DNA of 64,000 bases from Polynucleobacter necessarius (GTDB lineage Bacteria > Pseudomonadota > Gammaproteobacteria > Burkholderiales > Burkholderiaceae), in contig NZ_LT606948.1 in assembly GCF_900095185.1 (NCBI RefSeq), positions 823,823 through 887,822 of the forward strand. The letters run 5' to 3'. A program made the translations under genes and the position numbers. Shown here in pieces: positions 3,500 to 23,852 of the stretch. Numbering within the stretch: the first letter of the stretch is position 1; each line of letters opens with the position of its first letter. The notes under the pieces were generated by a model. That model saw nothing but the letters and a program-made list of their open reading frames with translations, was not told the DNA's origin and did not search any database.

Positions 3500-4588
3500 A
3501 TGAAATTTATAGACGAAGCACGTATTGAAGTAATTGCCGGGCAAGGTGGTGCCGGAAGTGCCTCTATGCGCCGTGAAAAGTTCATTGAATTTGGTGGTCC
3601 TGATGGTGGCGATGGTGGCAAAGGCGGAAGTGTCTGGGCTATTGCCGATCGCAATATCAACACTTTGATTGATTATCGTTACGCAAAAACACATATTGCA
3701 AAAAATGGTGAGCCGGGTCGTGGAGCTGACTGTTACGGACGCGCTGGCGATGATATTGAATTGCGCATGTCGGTTGGCACCATCATTTCTGACTATGAAA
3801 CAGGTGAGCCTATTGCTGACTTAACTACGCATGGTGAACGTTTGTGTCTAGCGCAAGGTGGTGTTGGTGGTTGGGGCAATATTCACTTTAAGAGTAGTAC
3901 TAATCGGGCTCCGCGCCAGAAGACTAATGGCAAGCCTGGTGAACGCCGTAAGTTGAAATTGGAACTTAAGGTATTGGCTGACGTAGGTTTATTGGGCATG
4001 CCAAATGCTGGCAAATCTACCTTGATCACTGCGGTTTCTAATGCCCGACCAAAGATTGCGGATTACCCATTCACTACTTTGCATCCAAACTTGGGTGTTG
4101 TTCGTGTTGGTAATGAGCGTAGCTTTGTGATTGCGGACATACCGGGGTTGATTGAGGGTGCAGCTGAGGGTGCTGGTTTAGGTCATCGTTTTTTGCGCCA
4201 CTTGCAACGTACAGGTGTCTTGCTGCATTTGGTTGAGATTGCCCCTTTTGATGAGAAAGTAGATCCAGTAGCGGATGCTAATGCCATCGTCAATGAGTTG
4301 CGTAAGTATGATGAGGCTTTGGTTGAGAAGCCACGATGGTTGGTGTTCAATAAAGTCGACATGATCCCAGAGGAAGATCGTAAAAAAGTGGTTGCCGACT
4401 TTGTTAAAAAGTTTAAGTGGAAGGGGCCTGTTTTTGAGATTTCCGCTTTAACTGGTATGGGCTGCGATAAGCTCTGCTACTCTTTGCAGGATTACTTAGA
4501 CTCTGTACGTCGTGATCGAGATGATGCTGATGAGCGCGCTCAAGATCCTCGGTATCAAGACGCTGCAGAGGATAAAAAACCAGATTAA
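3500..4588 (+). CDS. obgE: GTPase ObgE/CgtA
   Basis: Obg is an essential GTPase involved in late assembly of the 50S subunit. The glycine-rich Obg fold fills residues 1-158 ([27 protein letters not shown]). The G domain follows with G1 GMPNAGKS at 166-173, G2-region FTT at 191-193, G3 DIPG at 213-216 and G4 NKVD at 284-287. The acidic C-terminal tail ends DAAEDKKPD. The 362-residue length is normal. Its place after rplU-rpmA and before proB is the usual Burkholderiales order. The start codon lies 11 nt after a hairpin. Confidence 0.97.
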
Positions 4589-16279: not shown

Positions 16280-16607
16280 ATGGCAACTGCCAAGAAAAAA
16301 CCTGCTGCAAAGAAACCTGCTGCAAAGAAACCAGCTGCTAAAAAAGTTACTGCTAAAAAGCCAGCCGCTAAAAAGCCAGCCGCTAAAAAGCCAGCCGCTA
16401 AAAAAGTTACTGCTAAAAAAGTTACTGCTAAAAAGCCAGCCGCTAAAAAAGCTGCAAAAAAGCGTGTAGCAAAAAAAAGTAAGTAAGCCTGCTGCGAAGA
16501 AAGCGGACGCTGTTGTAAAAAAGCCCGTGGCTAAAAAAGCTGCACCAGCGACTAGTGCGTTGAATCCTGCCGCTGCTTGGCCCTTCCCAACTGGCACACG
16601 TCCTTGA
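16280..16607 (+). pseudogene. Histone H1-like nucleoid protein, frameshifted in a poly-A tract
   Basis: The first frame gives 68 residues made of AAKKPAAKKP and AAKKVTAKK repeats, a lysine/alanine-rich DNA-binding tail like that of H1-like proteins of Burkholderiales. It stops at TAA just after an A8 run at 16471-16478. With seven A the frame continues as VSKPAAKKADAVVKKPVAKK and ends NPAAAWPFPTGTRP, the usual C-terminus of this family, at TGA 16605-16607. So one extra A splits the gene. The truncated 68-residue basic peptide might still bind DNA, and polymerase slippage on A8 could restore some full-length protein. The lysine codon repeats make a 15-nt tandem repeat in the DNA. Confidence 0.8.
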
Positions 16608-16715: not shown

Positions 16716-17675
16716 CTAGAGGCTAAAGCCAAATGCTCTTTTAAATTGTTCGGCAATCTCATCTTTGCGTAATTGGTGGTTTTGCGGTCCTTGGTGGGTA
16801 ATTTTGATTGCACCCATCAGGCTGGCTAATCGGCCGGTTGTTTCCCAGTCCATGTCGTTTTCCAGTCCGAACAATAATCCGCCGCGAAAGGCATCGCCAC
16901 AGCCTGTTGGATCAACCACTTTTGCTGGTGGTACGGGGGGAATTGCAATGCATGTACCCTCAAAGTAAATATCAGCGCCTTCTGCCCCTTTGGTAACAAT
17001 CATTGCTTTCACTCGTTCGGCTACTTTTGCCAGGCTTAAGCCGGTTCTTTGGGCAAGCATTTCACCTTCATAGTCATTTACCGCTAAGTAACTGGCAATT
17101 TCAACCAACTCTAAAAGCTCTGGACCATTAAACATGGGCAAGCCTTGGCCTGGATCGAAGATAAATGGAATATTGGCATCGGCCAACTGATGGCAGTGCT
17201 CCCACATTCCTTGGCGACCATCGGGCGCAACGATTCCGAATTTAGCTGGGTTCTTAGCGTTTTTACTACGTTCTGCAACAACTTCCGAAACCTGATTTAA
17301 ATGGGACTTACCCATGGCGCCTGGATGAAAAGCGGTTATCTGATTATTGGCCTGATCCGTGGTGATCATGGCTTGAGCAGTGAAGGCATGTTCGATTTGA
17401 CGAATATGGGTCGCATCGATCTTGAGTTGTTCAAGGCGGCGCATATAAGGTGATGCATCGCCACCAACAGTAGCCATGATGATGGTATCGCCACCCAAAA
17501 GATTGAGGTTATAAGCAATATTTCCTGCGCAACCGCCAAACTCTCGGCGCATTGTTGGTACCAAAAAGGCAACATTCAGAATGTGAATCTGCTCTGGTAG
17601 TATTTGATCAGCAAATTTGCCTTCAAAGTTCATAATGGTGTCGTAAGCGATAGAACCGCAGATCAAGCTAGCCAT
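16716..17675 (-). CDS. PfkB/ribokinase-family carbohydrate (adenosine kinase-like) kinase
   Basis: The 319-residue protein has the PfkB layout: an N-terminal GGCAGNIAYNLNLLGG (47-62), where ribokinases bind the sugar, and the C-terminal DPTGCGDAF at 255-263 with the anion hole and catalytic Asp261. Homologues in Burkholderiales are often labelled adenosine kinase, but the substrate could be another nucleoside or sugar. It is intact. It is the last gene of the minus-strand run that includes prmA, accC, accB and aroQ, with 2 nt to the PrmA fusion gene. Confidence 0.85.
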   Translation of the reverse strand: MASLICGSIAYDTIMNFEGKFADQILPEQIHILNVAFLVPTMRREFGGCAGNIAYNLNLLGGDTIIMATVGGDASPYMRRLEQLKIDATHIRQIEHAFTAQAMITTDQANNQITAFHPGAMGKSHLNQVSEVVAERSKNAKNPAKFGIVAPDGRQGMWEHCHQLADANIPFIFDPGQGLPMFNGPELLELVEIASYLAVNDYEGEMLAQRTGLSLAKVAERVKAMIVTKGAEGADIYFEGTCIAIPPVPPAKVVDPTGCGDAFRGGLLFGLENDMDWETTGRLASLMGAIKITHQGPQNHQLRKDEIAEQFKRAFGFSL

Positions 17676-17677
17676 AG

Positions 17678-19258
17678 TTACTTTCTTATAAGAATAAAAG
17701 GTGAATAATGAAATGAGGAAGGAGAGTAGGGATACAAAACGCGAACACGATAGCCCGCGGCACTTATAGGCAACGTAATCGGTAATTCAACTTGGAGGAT
17801 TTCGCCAGAGGGAACCCCGGTTTTTAAAAAATCAGCATGCTGCTCTTGCCAAGAGCTGGGTAACCACTCTTGAGGTGTAAATTGCAGCGATTTGATATCT
17901 GACTCTTCAGCATCGGTCAAGGAAATTTCTAAAGTTGGCGGTAAAACAGCAATAGCAAGACGATTTTGTATCTCCACTTGCAATAGAGATTGATTTTTGA
18001 GGCTTTTAAGCCCGTCTCGTGAGTTTTCAGGTGAGAGTGTGGCTGATGAAGTGATTTGCCATGCTGCAAAATCACTCACAGTGCGTTCTATGCAGCCTAG
18101 TGCCTGACAAAGTTTCGTATCGATACGTTGTAATAATTGAAATGCACCAACTGAAAATGAATTGGATGATCCGTCCACTCGTGGCGCTAATGTTGGGAGC
18201 AAAGAATTTCTAGAAAGATGCTCTCCAAAAATCAGCAGCAATAGAAATAAAGTAGCTAATAGGGTTAGCTTAAAACTTTTTTTTTGAGCGGGTGCGGTTA
18301 AGGAAGCTGCTTCCGTGACCTGCTTTTCTGAGCCAAGGGTTCCGTGCAGACATATCCAGCCTTCATTCTCTTTCCAAACGGAGAGTTTGAGCCATTGACT
18401 ATAGGTAGCAATCACTTCTTCTGCTTGGCGGGCGAGCACGCCAGATAAAACAATGTGACCACCCACTTTCATTTTGTTTACTAAGGCTGGGGCAAGAACT
18501 TGCAGTGGATTGGCTAAGATATTGGCCATAACGATGTCATATTTGGTTTCGGCAGCCAACTCTGGTGCATCTTCGTTGGGGAGTACAAAACGGATCGAAG
18601 TGTGATTGATCTCGGAATTGCTGCGAGCAGCAACCATTGCTTGAGGATCAATATCTGTGCCGATAACTGGATTGCAGCCCAGTTTTGCAGCAGCAATTGC
18701 CAAAATACCTGAGCCGCAACCATAATCGAGGAGGCGTTGATTTTGTAAATTACTCTGTTGTTCAAGCCATAGAAGGCATAAATGCGTAGTTGGGTGGCTA
18801 CCAGCACCAAATGCAAGCCCTGGATCAACCGCAAGACAAATGGCGTTGGGATCGTTTGGTGCGTCATGCCAAGAGGGTACCACCCAAACACGCTCACCAA
18901 TCTGAATTGGTGCAAATTGACTTTGGGTGAGCCTCACCCAATCTTGTTCTTCCACCATTTTTTCTTGAGGAGGGTCTAAATGAAAGCCAGCCTCTTTGAG
19001 CGAAACTAGGAGTTCGGGGATAAATTCTGCGCTATCAGAAAAATCAATTTCAGGGTTAAATAGAGCGGTGACAGCTGATCTATCCCAAGCTTGTACTTCT
19101 GGATGAAGTCCAGGCTCACCATAAAGTGGGTTTTCATCGTATCCACCAGCAGCAGCATCTTCAATGGTGACCGAAAGGGCACCCAGCTCCAACAGTACAT
19201 CGCCCAATGGCTCTGCAGTTTCAGCAGCTACCGTGAAGATCAGCTCACGATAAGTCAT
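17678..19258 (-). CDS. prmA: Fusion of ribosomal protein L11 methyltransferase PrmA with a DUF3426 membrane protein
   Basis: Residues 1-307 are PrmA, which trimethylates ribosomal protein L11. The SAM motif LLDYGCGSGILAIAAAKLG is at 177-194 and ANILANP at 245-251. PrmA normally ends near residue 300, at a segment like EGWICLHGTLGS here. The frame then continues through a basic linker into a membrane segment (LTLLATLFLLLLIFGEHL, 331-348) and a DUF3426 domain with LCQALGCIERTVSDF at 383-397. In relatives DUF3426 is the tail of a separate zinc-ribbon protein encoded right after prmA. The zinc-ribbon half is missing, so a deletion most likely joined the two genes. PrmA may remain active but would be membrane-anchored. 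Confidence 0.88.
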   Translation of the reverse strand: MTYRELIFTVAAETAEPLGDVLLELGALSVTIEDAAAGGYDENPLYGEPGLHPEVQAWDRSAVTALFNPEIDFSDSAEFIPELLVSLKEAGFHLDPPQEKMVEEQDWVRLTQSQFAPIQIGERVWVVPSWHDAPNDPNAICLAVDPGLAFGAGSHPTTHLCLLWLEQQSNLQNQRLLDYGCGSGILAIAAAKLGCNPVIGTDIDPQAMVAARSNSEINHTSIRFVLPNEDAPELAAETKYDIVMANILANPLQVLAPALVNKMKVGGHIVLSGVLARQAEEVIATYSQWLKLSVWKENEGWICLHGTLGSEKQVTEAASLTAPAQKKSFKLTLLATLFLLLLIFGEHLSRNSLLPTLAPRVDGSSNSFSVGAFQLLQRIDTKLCQALGCIERTVSDFAAWQITSSATLSPENSRDGLKSLKNQSLLQVEIQNRLAIAVLPPTLEISLTDAEESDIKSLQFTPQEWLPSSWQEQHADFLKTGVPSGEILQVELPITLPISAAGYRVRVLYPYSPSSFHYSPFILIRK

Positions 19259-19278: not shown

Positions 19279-20643
19279 TTAGGGCTTGTCGCGGCTTGCA
19301 GCCTGCTTTTCGAGACGATTCTCTAAGTAGTGGATGCTGGTTCCACCTTCAATGAAGTTAGGATCCAACATCAATTCACGGTGCAATGGTACGTTGGTTG
19401 TGATTCCGTCAATGACTATTTCTGAAAGTGCGATTTGCATACGACGAATGGCTTGCTCGCGGGTATTGCCGTAAGAAATCAACTTACCAATCATGGAATC
19501 GTAGTTTGCAGGCACTACATATCCGCTGTAAGCATGAGAGTCAACACGAATACCAGGACCACCTGGCATATGGAATGAGCCGATGCGACCAGGACTTGGA
19601 GTGAACTTAAATGGATCTTCCGCATTTAAACGACACTCGATCGCATGACCACGGAAAACAATATCCTTTTGGCGATAGCTTAATCTCAGGCCGGCCGCTA
19701 TACGAATTTGTTCTTGAACAATATCTACGCCGGTAATCATCTCGGTAACCGGATGCTCTACCTGAACACGAGTATTCATCTCAATAAAAAAGAATTCACC
19801 ATCCTCATCGAGGAACTCGAATGTACCAGCCCCTCGGTAGCCAATTTTGCGGCAGGCTTCAGCGCAACGCTCACCAAGTTTGGCGATTAAATAACGATCA
19901 ATGCCTGGGGCAGGGGCTTCCTCGATGACCTTTTGATGACGACGCTGCATAGAGCAATCTCGTTCGCCTAGCCAGATTGCATTACCGTGGGTATCTGCGA
20001 GAATCTGAATCTCTACATGGCGAGGTTTTTCTAAAAACTTCTCCATATAAACCTCTGGGTTACCGAATGCGCGACCTGCTTCTTCGCGAGTCATATTGAC
20101 AGCGTTCATTAAGTGCGCTTCAGTATGTACGACGCGCATACCACGACCACCACCACCACCTGCAGCTTTAATAATGACTGGGTAACCAATTTTTTTGGCA
20201 ATTGCAATAATTTCTTTTGGGTCATCGGGAAGTGCGCCCTCCGAACTAGATACGCAAGGGACACCTGCGTTAATCATGGCTCGTTTGGCTGATACCTTAT
20301 CGCCCATAAGACGTATAGATGCTGCAGTAGGGCCGATAAATGCGAATCCTGACTTCTCAACGCGTTCTGCAAAGTCTGCATTTTCAGAGAGGAAGCCGTA
20401 GCCTGGATGAATAGCTTCGGCATCGGTTACTTCCGCCGCCGAAATAATCGCTGGCATATTGAGGTAACTGAGTGGAGACGGTGCTGGTCCGATGCAAACT
20501 GCTTCATCAGCAAGCTTTACATACTTCGCCTCTTTATCGGCTGTGGAATAGACCACTACAGTTTTAATTCCCAACTCGCGGCATGCGCGTTGGATACGGA
20601 GAGCGATCTCTCCGCGATTGGCAATCAGAATCTTATCGAACAT
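19279..20643 (-). CDS. accC: Acetyl-CoA carboxylase, biotin carboxylase subunit
   Basis: AccC carboxylates biotin on AccB using ATP and bicarbonate, the first half of malonyl-CoA synthesis. Its 454 residues are full length. [17 protein letters not shown] starts the biotin carboxylase N domain. [13 protein letters not shown] is the ATP-grasp glycine loop, and [17 protein letters not shown] holds the catalytic and metal residues. It lies 62 nt downstream of accB and 20 nt upstream of the PrmA fusion, all on the minus strand, which suggests one operon. Confidence 0.97.
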
Positions 20644-21896: not shown

Positions 21897-22424
21897 CTAT
21901 AAAGCGTTTTTAATAGCACTTCTTAGTTCATCTTCGCTTATCTTGCCTAATTTGCTATAGGTTGCTTTTCCCTTTGCACTGATGATGATGGTATAGGGTA
22001 AGGCTCCTTGGGAGCTTCCTAATTGTTTGGAAAGGCTGCTACCTTCCAATCCGCCTATCACAATTGGATCGGAAACTGGAGTTTCTGAAAGAAAATCACG
22101 AATATTAGAGGATGAAGCGATACCAATGCCAACAAATAAGACATTTTTTTGTAAAAAATCTTGTTGAAGCTTATCTAATGTAGGCATTTCCTCGACGCAA
22201 GGGGGCACCAAGATGACCAAAAGTTGACCACAAGCACTTTCCCTTGCCATTTTTGAATTTCAACTGCTTTTCCATCCGGAGTTTGCCAAGAATTGCCTAA
22301 AAAGGCTTTTACAGGAGGAGCGTTTGCTAAACCAGTTTTATAGGATCCACTGCGAAGTGAGGACGCCGGCAAGGAGTGCTAAAAGACTAATTGTGACGAT
22401 GATCATCCATTGTTTGCGGTTCAT
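21897..22424 (-). pseudogene. TlpA/ResA-like thioredoxin-fold protein, pseudogene
   Basis: From ATG 22422-22424, behind a GGAG site, the frame reads MNRKQWMIIVTISLLALLAG, a membrane anchor. It is then shifted near 22340 to YKTGLANAPPVKAFLGNSW and KVLVVNFWSSWCP. The frame breaks again inside the active site: a G5 run at 22201-22205 should be G6 to give WCPPCVEEMPTLDKLQ, the frame that then continues to the stop at 21897. The intact family makes periplasmic disulfide reductases for cytochrome c maturation and similar tasks. With two frameshifts, one between the two active-site cysteines, it cannot work. Confidence 0.88.
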
Positions 22425-22450: not shown

Positions 22451-23852
22451 ATGCATATACATATTTTGGGCATTTGCGGTACTTTCATGGGCGGCATTGC
22501 CGCAATTGCGAGACAGGCTGGACATCGTGTTGCTGGTTGTGATGCCAATGTGTATCCACCCATGAGTACGCACCTTGAGGCTCAAGGCATCGAACTAATT
22601 GAGGGGTTCTCGCTGCATCAATTATCTCAGTTTGAGACCATGCCTGATTTATTTGTGATTGGTAATGTGGTTTCTCGCGGCAACCCTTTGATGGAGGCGA
22701 TTCTTAATCAAGGCTTGCCTTATATTTCTGGACCGCAATGGTTGGGCGAGCAAGTTTTGTATGGAAGGCGCGTTCTTGCAGTAGCTGGAACACACGGTAA
22801 AACTACTACCTCAGCCATGCTCACTTGGATTTTAGAATTTAATGGCTATAAACCAGACTACCTGATTGGTGGTGTACCACTGAATTTCACTGTCTCTGCG
22901 CAATTGAGCGAGAGTAAATATTGTGTCATCGAAGCCGACGAGTACGACATGGCATTTTTTGATAAGCGCAGTAAGTTTGTCCACTATCGCCCACGTACAG
23001 CATTGCTCAATAACTTAGAGTTTGATCACGCTGAGATTTTTTTTGAGCTTGCAGCAATAAAAACACAGTTTCATCATTTGGTGCGGACCGTTCCCGGGGA
23101 TGGCTTATTGGTAGCCAATGGTGAGGAGCCTGCCTTAGCCAGTGTAATTTCGAGGGGGGCTTGGGCTCCTGTTGAACGTTTTGACCAGGAGTCTACCAAC
23201 GAATGGTGTTTGATTTCACAAGAAATCGATGGTTTTATTATGCGCAAGTCTGGCAAGGAGGTTGCAACTGTGCAGTGGTCGCCTGATTCTGGTGTGATAG
23301 GGGCGTCATAATCAATTCAATGCACTTGCTGCTATCGCTTCTGCAAACCATATTGGCATTTCGCCGGCGGACTCAACTCATGCATTGGCTGAGTTTAAGA
23401 ATGTTAAGCGTCGTTTGGAAACAATTGGCGTTGACAATGACATCACAATTTATGATGACTTTGCGCATCATCCAACTGCGATTACTACAACCGTTGATGG
23501 TCTTCGTCGTCGTGTGGGCAAGGCGTGTATCTTAGCTGTGCTCGAGCCACGTTCTAACACGATGAAGCTCGGCGTGATGAAGGCCCAGCTACCTGGAAGC
23601 TTACAAGCGGCAGATAAGGTATTTGCCTATGGCGCTAGTACAGGAAAGGAATCATTGGGTTGGGACTTAGCAGAGGTCCTATCCCCGCTGAATGTAAACA
23701 ACCAAGATAAAGCTAGGGCGTTTGATGACCTAGAGGTTTTGGGTGATGCAGTCATTCTAGAAGCTAATCTAGGCGATTAGATCTTGGTGATGAGTAACGG
23801 TGGATTCTGCGGCGTTCATTAGACAATATTAAAAGCTTTATCAAAGCAGTAA
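22451..23852 (+). pseudogene. mpl: UDP-MurNAc:L-Ala-gamma-D-Glu-meso-DAP ligase Mpl, pseudogene
   Basis: Mpl re-uses the murein tripeptide released in recycling. The N-terminal Rossmann part (MHIHILGICGTFMGGIAA) and Mur ligase P-loop (VAGTHGKTTTSAML) are intact in the first frame. That frame stops at about 23311 because G4 at 23300-23303 should be G3. The next frame restores GRHNQFNALAAIA and continues through KRRLETIGVDN and YDDFAHHPTAI. This part then meets a TAG at 23778-23780, reads on as ILVMSNGGFCGVH, meets another TAG at 23820-23822 and ends TILKALSKQ at TAA 23850-23852. Three lesions of two kinds make this a true pseudogene. It is divergent from the broken TlpA-like gene. Confidence 0.92.

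Follow-up and report, generated by a model that had tools for sequence, protein, structure and literature searches.

In dnaX of Thermus thermophilus, which encodes the tau and gamma forms, slippage on a run of nine A (A9) gives about 50% short product (PMC1088944, PMC5009743), and it is at nine A that many bacterial genomes begin to show selection against transcriptional slippage (PMC1088944). Poly-A slippage also produces two length variants from tssM1 of Citrobacter rodentium and tssM3 of Yersinia pseudotuberculosis, which have opposite default frames (PMC4256274). A changeable shift direction is, according to Antonov et al., a sign of transcriptional slippage and not of ribosomal frameshifting (PMC3711429). 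The DUF3426 domain is found in ZitP of Caulobacter, where a zinc ribbon (Zn_ribbon_5) is cytoplasmic and is followed by a transmembrane (TM) helix and by DUF3426, which is predicted to be periplasmic (PMC5182063). PrmA methylates L11 before assembly, and in E. coli it is associated with no noticeable phenotype (PMC3347575).

The locus described here was found in a 64,000-nucleotide stretch of the Polynucleobacter necessarius genome (contig NZ_LT606948.1, positions 823,823 to 887,822), hereafter called the window. It is a single gene in which PrmA is joined in frame to a TM segment and DUF3426, with an A9 tract at the joint. The features are as follows, in window coordinates.

17678–19258, minus strand: fusion ORF, PrmA-linker-TM-DUF3426, 526 amino acids, a single open frame with an ATG start
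18341–19258, minus strand: PrmA part, residues 1–306 (PF06325, TIGR00406, PDB fold match)
18269–18340, minus strand: variable linker, residues 307–330 (hypervariable across species; low pLDDT at 314–327)
18277–18285, minus strand: A9 tract, proposed slippage site (CAA AAA AAA AGT, QKKS; A9 on the sense strand)
18270–18272, minus strand: TAA met in frame with one extra A (from the sequence and near-stop statistics)
18265–18267, minus strand: TAA met in frame with one A fewer (from the sequence and near-stop statistics)
18212–18268, minus strand: transmembrane segment, residues 331–349 (hydropathy; model helix 328–357)
17738–18256, minus strand: DUF3426, residues 335–507 (PF11906; the Pfam span takes in most of the TM segment)
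19279–20643, minus strand: upstream accC-like gene, context (ORF and gene order)
16716–17675, minus strand: PfkB-type kinase gene, 2 bp downstream, context

The Pfam match to PrmA covered residues 3–306 with an E value of 4.7e-84, and the NCBIfam family TIGR00406 (prmA) was matched over its full length, scoring 224.9 bits where the cut-off is 183.15. DUF3426 was matched with 48.9 bits against a gathering score of 27.7 (E 9.3e-13). The Pfam search of the fusion ORF gave no match to Zn_ribbon, the N-terminal CXXC...CXXC zinc ribbon of ZitP-type proteins; the only strongly hydrophobic segment by hydropathy was the one at residues 331–349. An AlphaFold2 model of the fusion, built on an alignment of 22 sequences, had a mean pLDDT of 74. 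In this model the PrmA fold resembles that of T. thermophilus PrmA (top PDB match 3cjq), the linker is of low confidence, a long helix follows, and the C-terminal domain is partly beta; among the best 50 PDB rows for the whole-fusion model there was no separate fold match for the DUF3426 part. The earlier note on this DNA had described PrmA running in frame into a membrane segment and DUF3426 without its zinc-ribbon half, and the Pfam, NCBIfam and hydropathy results bear this out. They also support its statement that the fusion product, if translated, would sit on the membrane.

When compared with PrmA proper, the complete family match and the fold are shared, and the fusion adds about 220 residues with the membrane segment and DUF3426. 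The single TM helix followed by DUF3426 is shared with ZitP; unlike in ZitP, PrmA stands in place of the cytoplasmic zinc ribbon. By analogy with ZitP, the fusion would hold PrmA at the inner membrane on its cytoplasmic side, where it may act, or PrmA may be a mere N-terminal carrier of DUF3426. As in T. thermophilus dnaX, the A9 tract lies in an open frame with stops near in both other frames, and, as is known for that gene (PMC1088944, PMC5009743) and proposed here from the sequence, the unslipped mRNA would give the long form. The gene itself is a different one, and its C-terminal part is a membrane anchor with a predicted periplasmic domain. The likeness to tssM lies in two forms of an inner-membrane protein that differ C-terminally, which here are predicted; the opposite default frames of the two tssM genes are also the pattern seen between most of the genus and three species described below (loci L032–L034). 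Unlike tssM, a secretion gene with A11 for which slippage was shown by RNA mass spectrometry, the tract studied here is an A9 where two genes have been fused, is kept over a genus, and is proposed to slip on sequence grounds. In a literature search DUF3426 was met only in work on ZitP, the fusion was not found, and no report joined PrmA with frameshifting or slippage; no L11 methyltransferase appears in the main text of the GeneTack survey.

Most of the 186 searched genomes of the Polynucleobacter-like genus carry the in-frame PrmA-DUF3426 fusion. Outside the genus there was none among the matches listed for a 399-genome sample of the order, a listing of best matches in which a fused protein would be expected near the top of the ranking. 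The listed non-genus matches stop near the PrmA C-terminus or continue only through stop codons, and the same was observed in a sample of the family. In outgroup genera from the same family, the next gene after prmA, no more than 100 bp away, is a separate one that encodes Zn_ribbon_5 and, past a long linker, a TM segment with DUF3426 (the zinc ribbon is present, for example, in L072), so the earlier note's view of the two genes as usually separate neighbours holds there. In a PrmA tree built by a quick method, 12 unfused species of the genus grouped together with a support of 98, and all fused genes fell apart from them, in a clade B of 14 species and a clade C of 145 species. The unfused members (L035–L046), with mostly larger genomes, have a separate TM-DUF3426 ORF of 142–161 amino acids 3' of prmA, in some cases overlapping it by 1 to 37 bases, and this ORF has no zinc ribbon. 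Because the ribbon is already missing in these unfused members, its loss and the fusion are separable, old events, and the fusion predates clades B and C.

This order of events bears on the origin given in the earlier note, a deletion in this lineage that joined prmA to what was left of the following gene. The architecture does match that description. A recent deletion is nevertheless refuted by the distribution of the fusion, which most of the genus carries, large free-standing genomes of 2 Mb among them; in addition, the zinc ribbon is missing both with and without the fusion, and dN/dS is low in the PrmA part and the DUF3426 part alike. The note had itself held that the same fusion in free-living relatives would refute its scenario and make the fusion ancestral, and the search found it in most of the genus. 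In three single-contig genomes, G017, G023 and G421 (L048, L047 and L199), the DUF3426 part is broken, and in G421 prmA is frameshifted too.

The A9 tract at the joint was absent from the earlier note, and because of it not all of the product is expected to be fused. We consider it likely that the locus is an ancient, genus-wide fusion with a selected A9 slippage site that gives both soluble and membrane-bound PrmA. In the proposed mechanism, a DUF3426 protein of bitopic type would have had its cytoplasmic zinc-ribbon half replaced by PrmA, and the A9 tract would be transcribed imprecisely by RNA polymerase. Messages with nine A would encode a 58-kDa fusion with PrmA in the cytoplasm, one TM helix and DUF3426 in the periplasm, a topology that we infer from the predicted segments; those with one A more or fewer would meet a stop within a few codons and yield a soluble PrmA of about 330 amino acids. 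Both forms would presumably be useful, and slippage would leave part of the PrmA free to reach newly made L11.

The linker between the end of PrmA (GWVCLxG) and the TM segment varies among species in both length and sequence, yet exactly A9 was present in 135 of 173 loci. The other loci had A10 (1), A8 (1), A7 (9), A6 (7) or no tract (20, of which 11 are unfused); a further locus, L048 of G017, which the tract-count script left unparsed, has A8 and a decayed DUF3426. The tract was found in three reading phases, as CAA AAA AAA A.. in most loci, as GTA AAA AAA AAC or CTA AAA AAA AAG in one clade, and as CTC AAA AAA AAA or CCC AAA AAA AAA in others. The residues encoded are QKK, VKKN and LKKK/PKKKW, respectively, and because the phases differ, conservation lies in the bases and not in the amino acids. 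In the codon preceding CAA, the third position, two bases ahead of the run, was T in 111 of 124 cases and G in 13, although the residue itself varies; the entropy of this wobble base (0.48) was below the lowest value (0.82) among the 102 conserved four-fold columns. As controls, three other sense-strand A9 tracts within genes of the same genome (dnaA, mutY and a rhodanese-like gene) were followed, and each was kept in 0 of 29 relatives. Among fused clade-C relatives taken from that portion of the genome list, 31 of 32 kept the prmA tract; this count leaves out G017, with its A8. The slippery runs in dnaA and mutY, private to this genome, may reflect relaxed selection. Tracts of at least nine A are rare overall, as a pattern search found 13 in the 1.66-Mb genome against about 110 expected, a value scaled up from a mean of 4.25 in shuffles of the 64-kb window.

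A plain constitutive fusion with one product, in which A9 is merely the DNA of a Lys-rich, positive-inside anchor, is improbable on these results. Lys residues ahead of a TM segment do suit the positive-inside rule, AAA (78%) and CAA (83%) are preferred codons, and AAA is likewise the sole codon (100%) in some other conserved Lys columns, for which reason codon identity alone is weak evidence. Other KK pairs in these ORFs, however, sit in runs of at least nine A in only 3 of 74 cases, the other A9 tracts are not kept, and in clade B up to about 27 residues separate the tract from the TM segment; near stops accompany the tract, and bases, not residues, survive the changes of phase. One fused clade of 8–10 species is wholly without A9, a point in favor of the plain fusion, and therefore the short form is not universally needed. 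Codon preference was also tried alone as a source of the tract and does not yield A9. It is the control tracts, together with the phase changes and the wobble base, that carry the case for selection on A9. As the tract counts come from related species, they lack independence; stronger arguments are provided by the changes of phase and by the control tracts, which have the same tree in common.

Stops in the shifted frames were counted across the genus. Of 130 genomes with A9, 119 have a stop no more than 15 codons away in both shifted frames, vs 36.5% at control positions; in fused genomes without A9 this was so in 6 of 24, after one of the 25 listed entries (L148, which carries A9 and has a mis-parsed, truncated ORF) was dropped. 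In the window, one A more would give an ending of ...QKKKF* and one A fewer ...QKKVLS*, with a PrmA of about 330 amino acids either way. The sequence features looked for in programmed slippage are all seen here, namely an in-gene run of at least nine A, conservation beyond expectation, and near stops or a reversed shift direction.

Near stops would also serve programmed ribosomal –1 frameshifting on A_AAA_AAA within the tract, which could make the short form (or, in L032–L034, the fusion) and is the main rival explanation. The heptamer is in frame in every phase seen, stops lie close in the shifted frame, and this is the mechanism of E. coli dnaX (PMC5009743). For such a mechanism A7 would be enough, yet A9 is what is kept (135 A9 loci against nine A7 and one A8), and close stops are found in both shifted frames and not in the –1 frame alone. 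RNA structure near the tract in the window was not significant (z –1.18). The default frame is, moreover, reversed in L032–L034, and a shift direction that changes is taken by Antonov et al. as a sign of transcriptional slippage (PMC3711429). Ribosomal frameshifting is accordingly judged unlikely, and we infer that the slippage would be that of RNA polymerase.

The reversal was observed in G090, G005 and G041 (L032–L034), which form one subclade of clade B. There A9 puts DUF3426 out of frame, so that PrmA ends in LKKKLLN*, 4 codons past the run, with an intact DUF3426 in the –1 frame. Their neighbor L052 has A10 and is in frame. Between the three species dN/dS of DUF3426 is 0.10–0.20, indicating purifying selection, and because of this the domain is very probably expressed. 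In L032, standard starts before the TM segment in the DUF3426 frame are limited to two TTG codons that precede the run; L034 has the same two and one TTG just past the run, and L033 has one TTG upstream of the run and one GTG after it. Internal initiation at such an in-frame TTG or GTG is an alternative, and slippage is the simplest route to DUF3426 in these species.

The out-of-frame A9 also enters into a further reading, in which replication slippage in the tract toggles the membrane anchor among the cells of a population (phase variation). Homopolymers are hypermutable, and the A8 of L048 together with the A9 of L032–L034 could be taken as products of this. A contingency locus should, however, give off states in many assemblies, and no genome with A9 or A10 was off frame save for the one state shared by the three related species; the remaining case is the decayed L048. 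Phase variation is therefore very unlikely.

To our knowledge, few cellular (non-transposon) genes with transcriptional slippage are known. On balance, the locus seems to be a new cellular case of programmed slippage, genus-wide, in which one gene would supply an L11 methyltransferase both to the cytosol and to the inner membrane, with the default frame reversed in one subclade and the site lost in another. What is new relative to the earlier note is this conserved A9 joint, through which one gene probably makes both free and membrane-bound enzyme. Over a hundred species serve as replicates, and there are internal controls in which the tract is lost, the frame reversed or the gene unfused; if the proposal is true, they offer a natural series in which recoding is gained, reversed and lost. 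A membrane-tethered PrmA joined to DUF3426 would be a handle on the role of either domain. A standard ORF call reveals the fused product alone or, in three species, PrmA alone.

In the P. necessarius genome the PrmA motif AFGTGSH reads AFGAGSH (T152A; window 18803–18805), the sole genome with Ala at this position among 197 PrmA sequences, and the enzyme may be weaker; the other 196 sequences agree in this motif. Two neighboring genes are split. The gene mpl (UDP-N-acetylmuramate:tripeptide ligase; window 22451–23780, plus strand) is divided into ORFs of 286 and 131 amino acids that match TIGR01081 positions 1–273 and 306–426, and it is probably a pseudogene. A redoxin/TlpA-like gene (window 21897–22372, minus strand) is split over two frames. 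Because of these two splits and T152A, some gene erosion seems to be under way in this genome; the fusion and its A9 are intact despite the neighboring split genes. A small Lys-Ala-Pro repeat protein with AAKKP repeats is encoded nearby (window 16280–16486, plus strand), and the repeats are seemingly longer in L199 (near 3800–4500).
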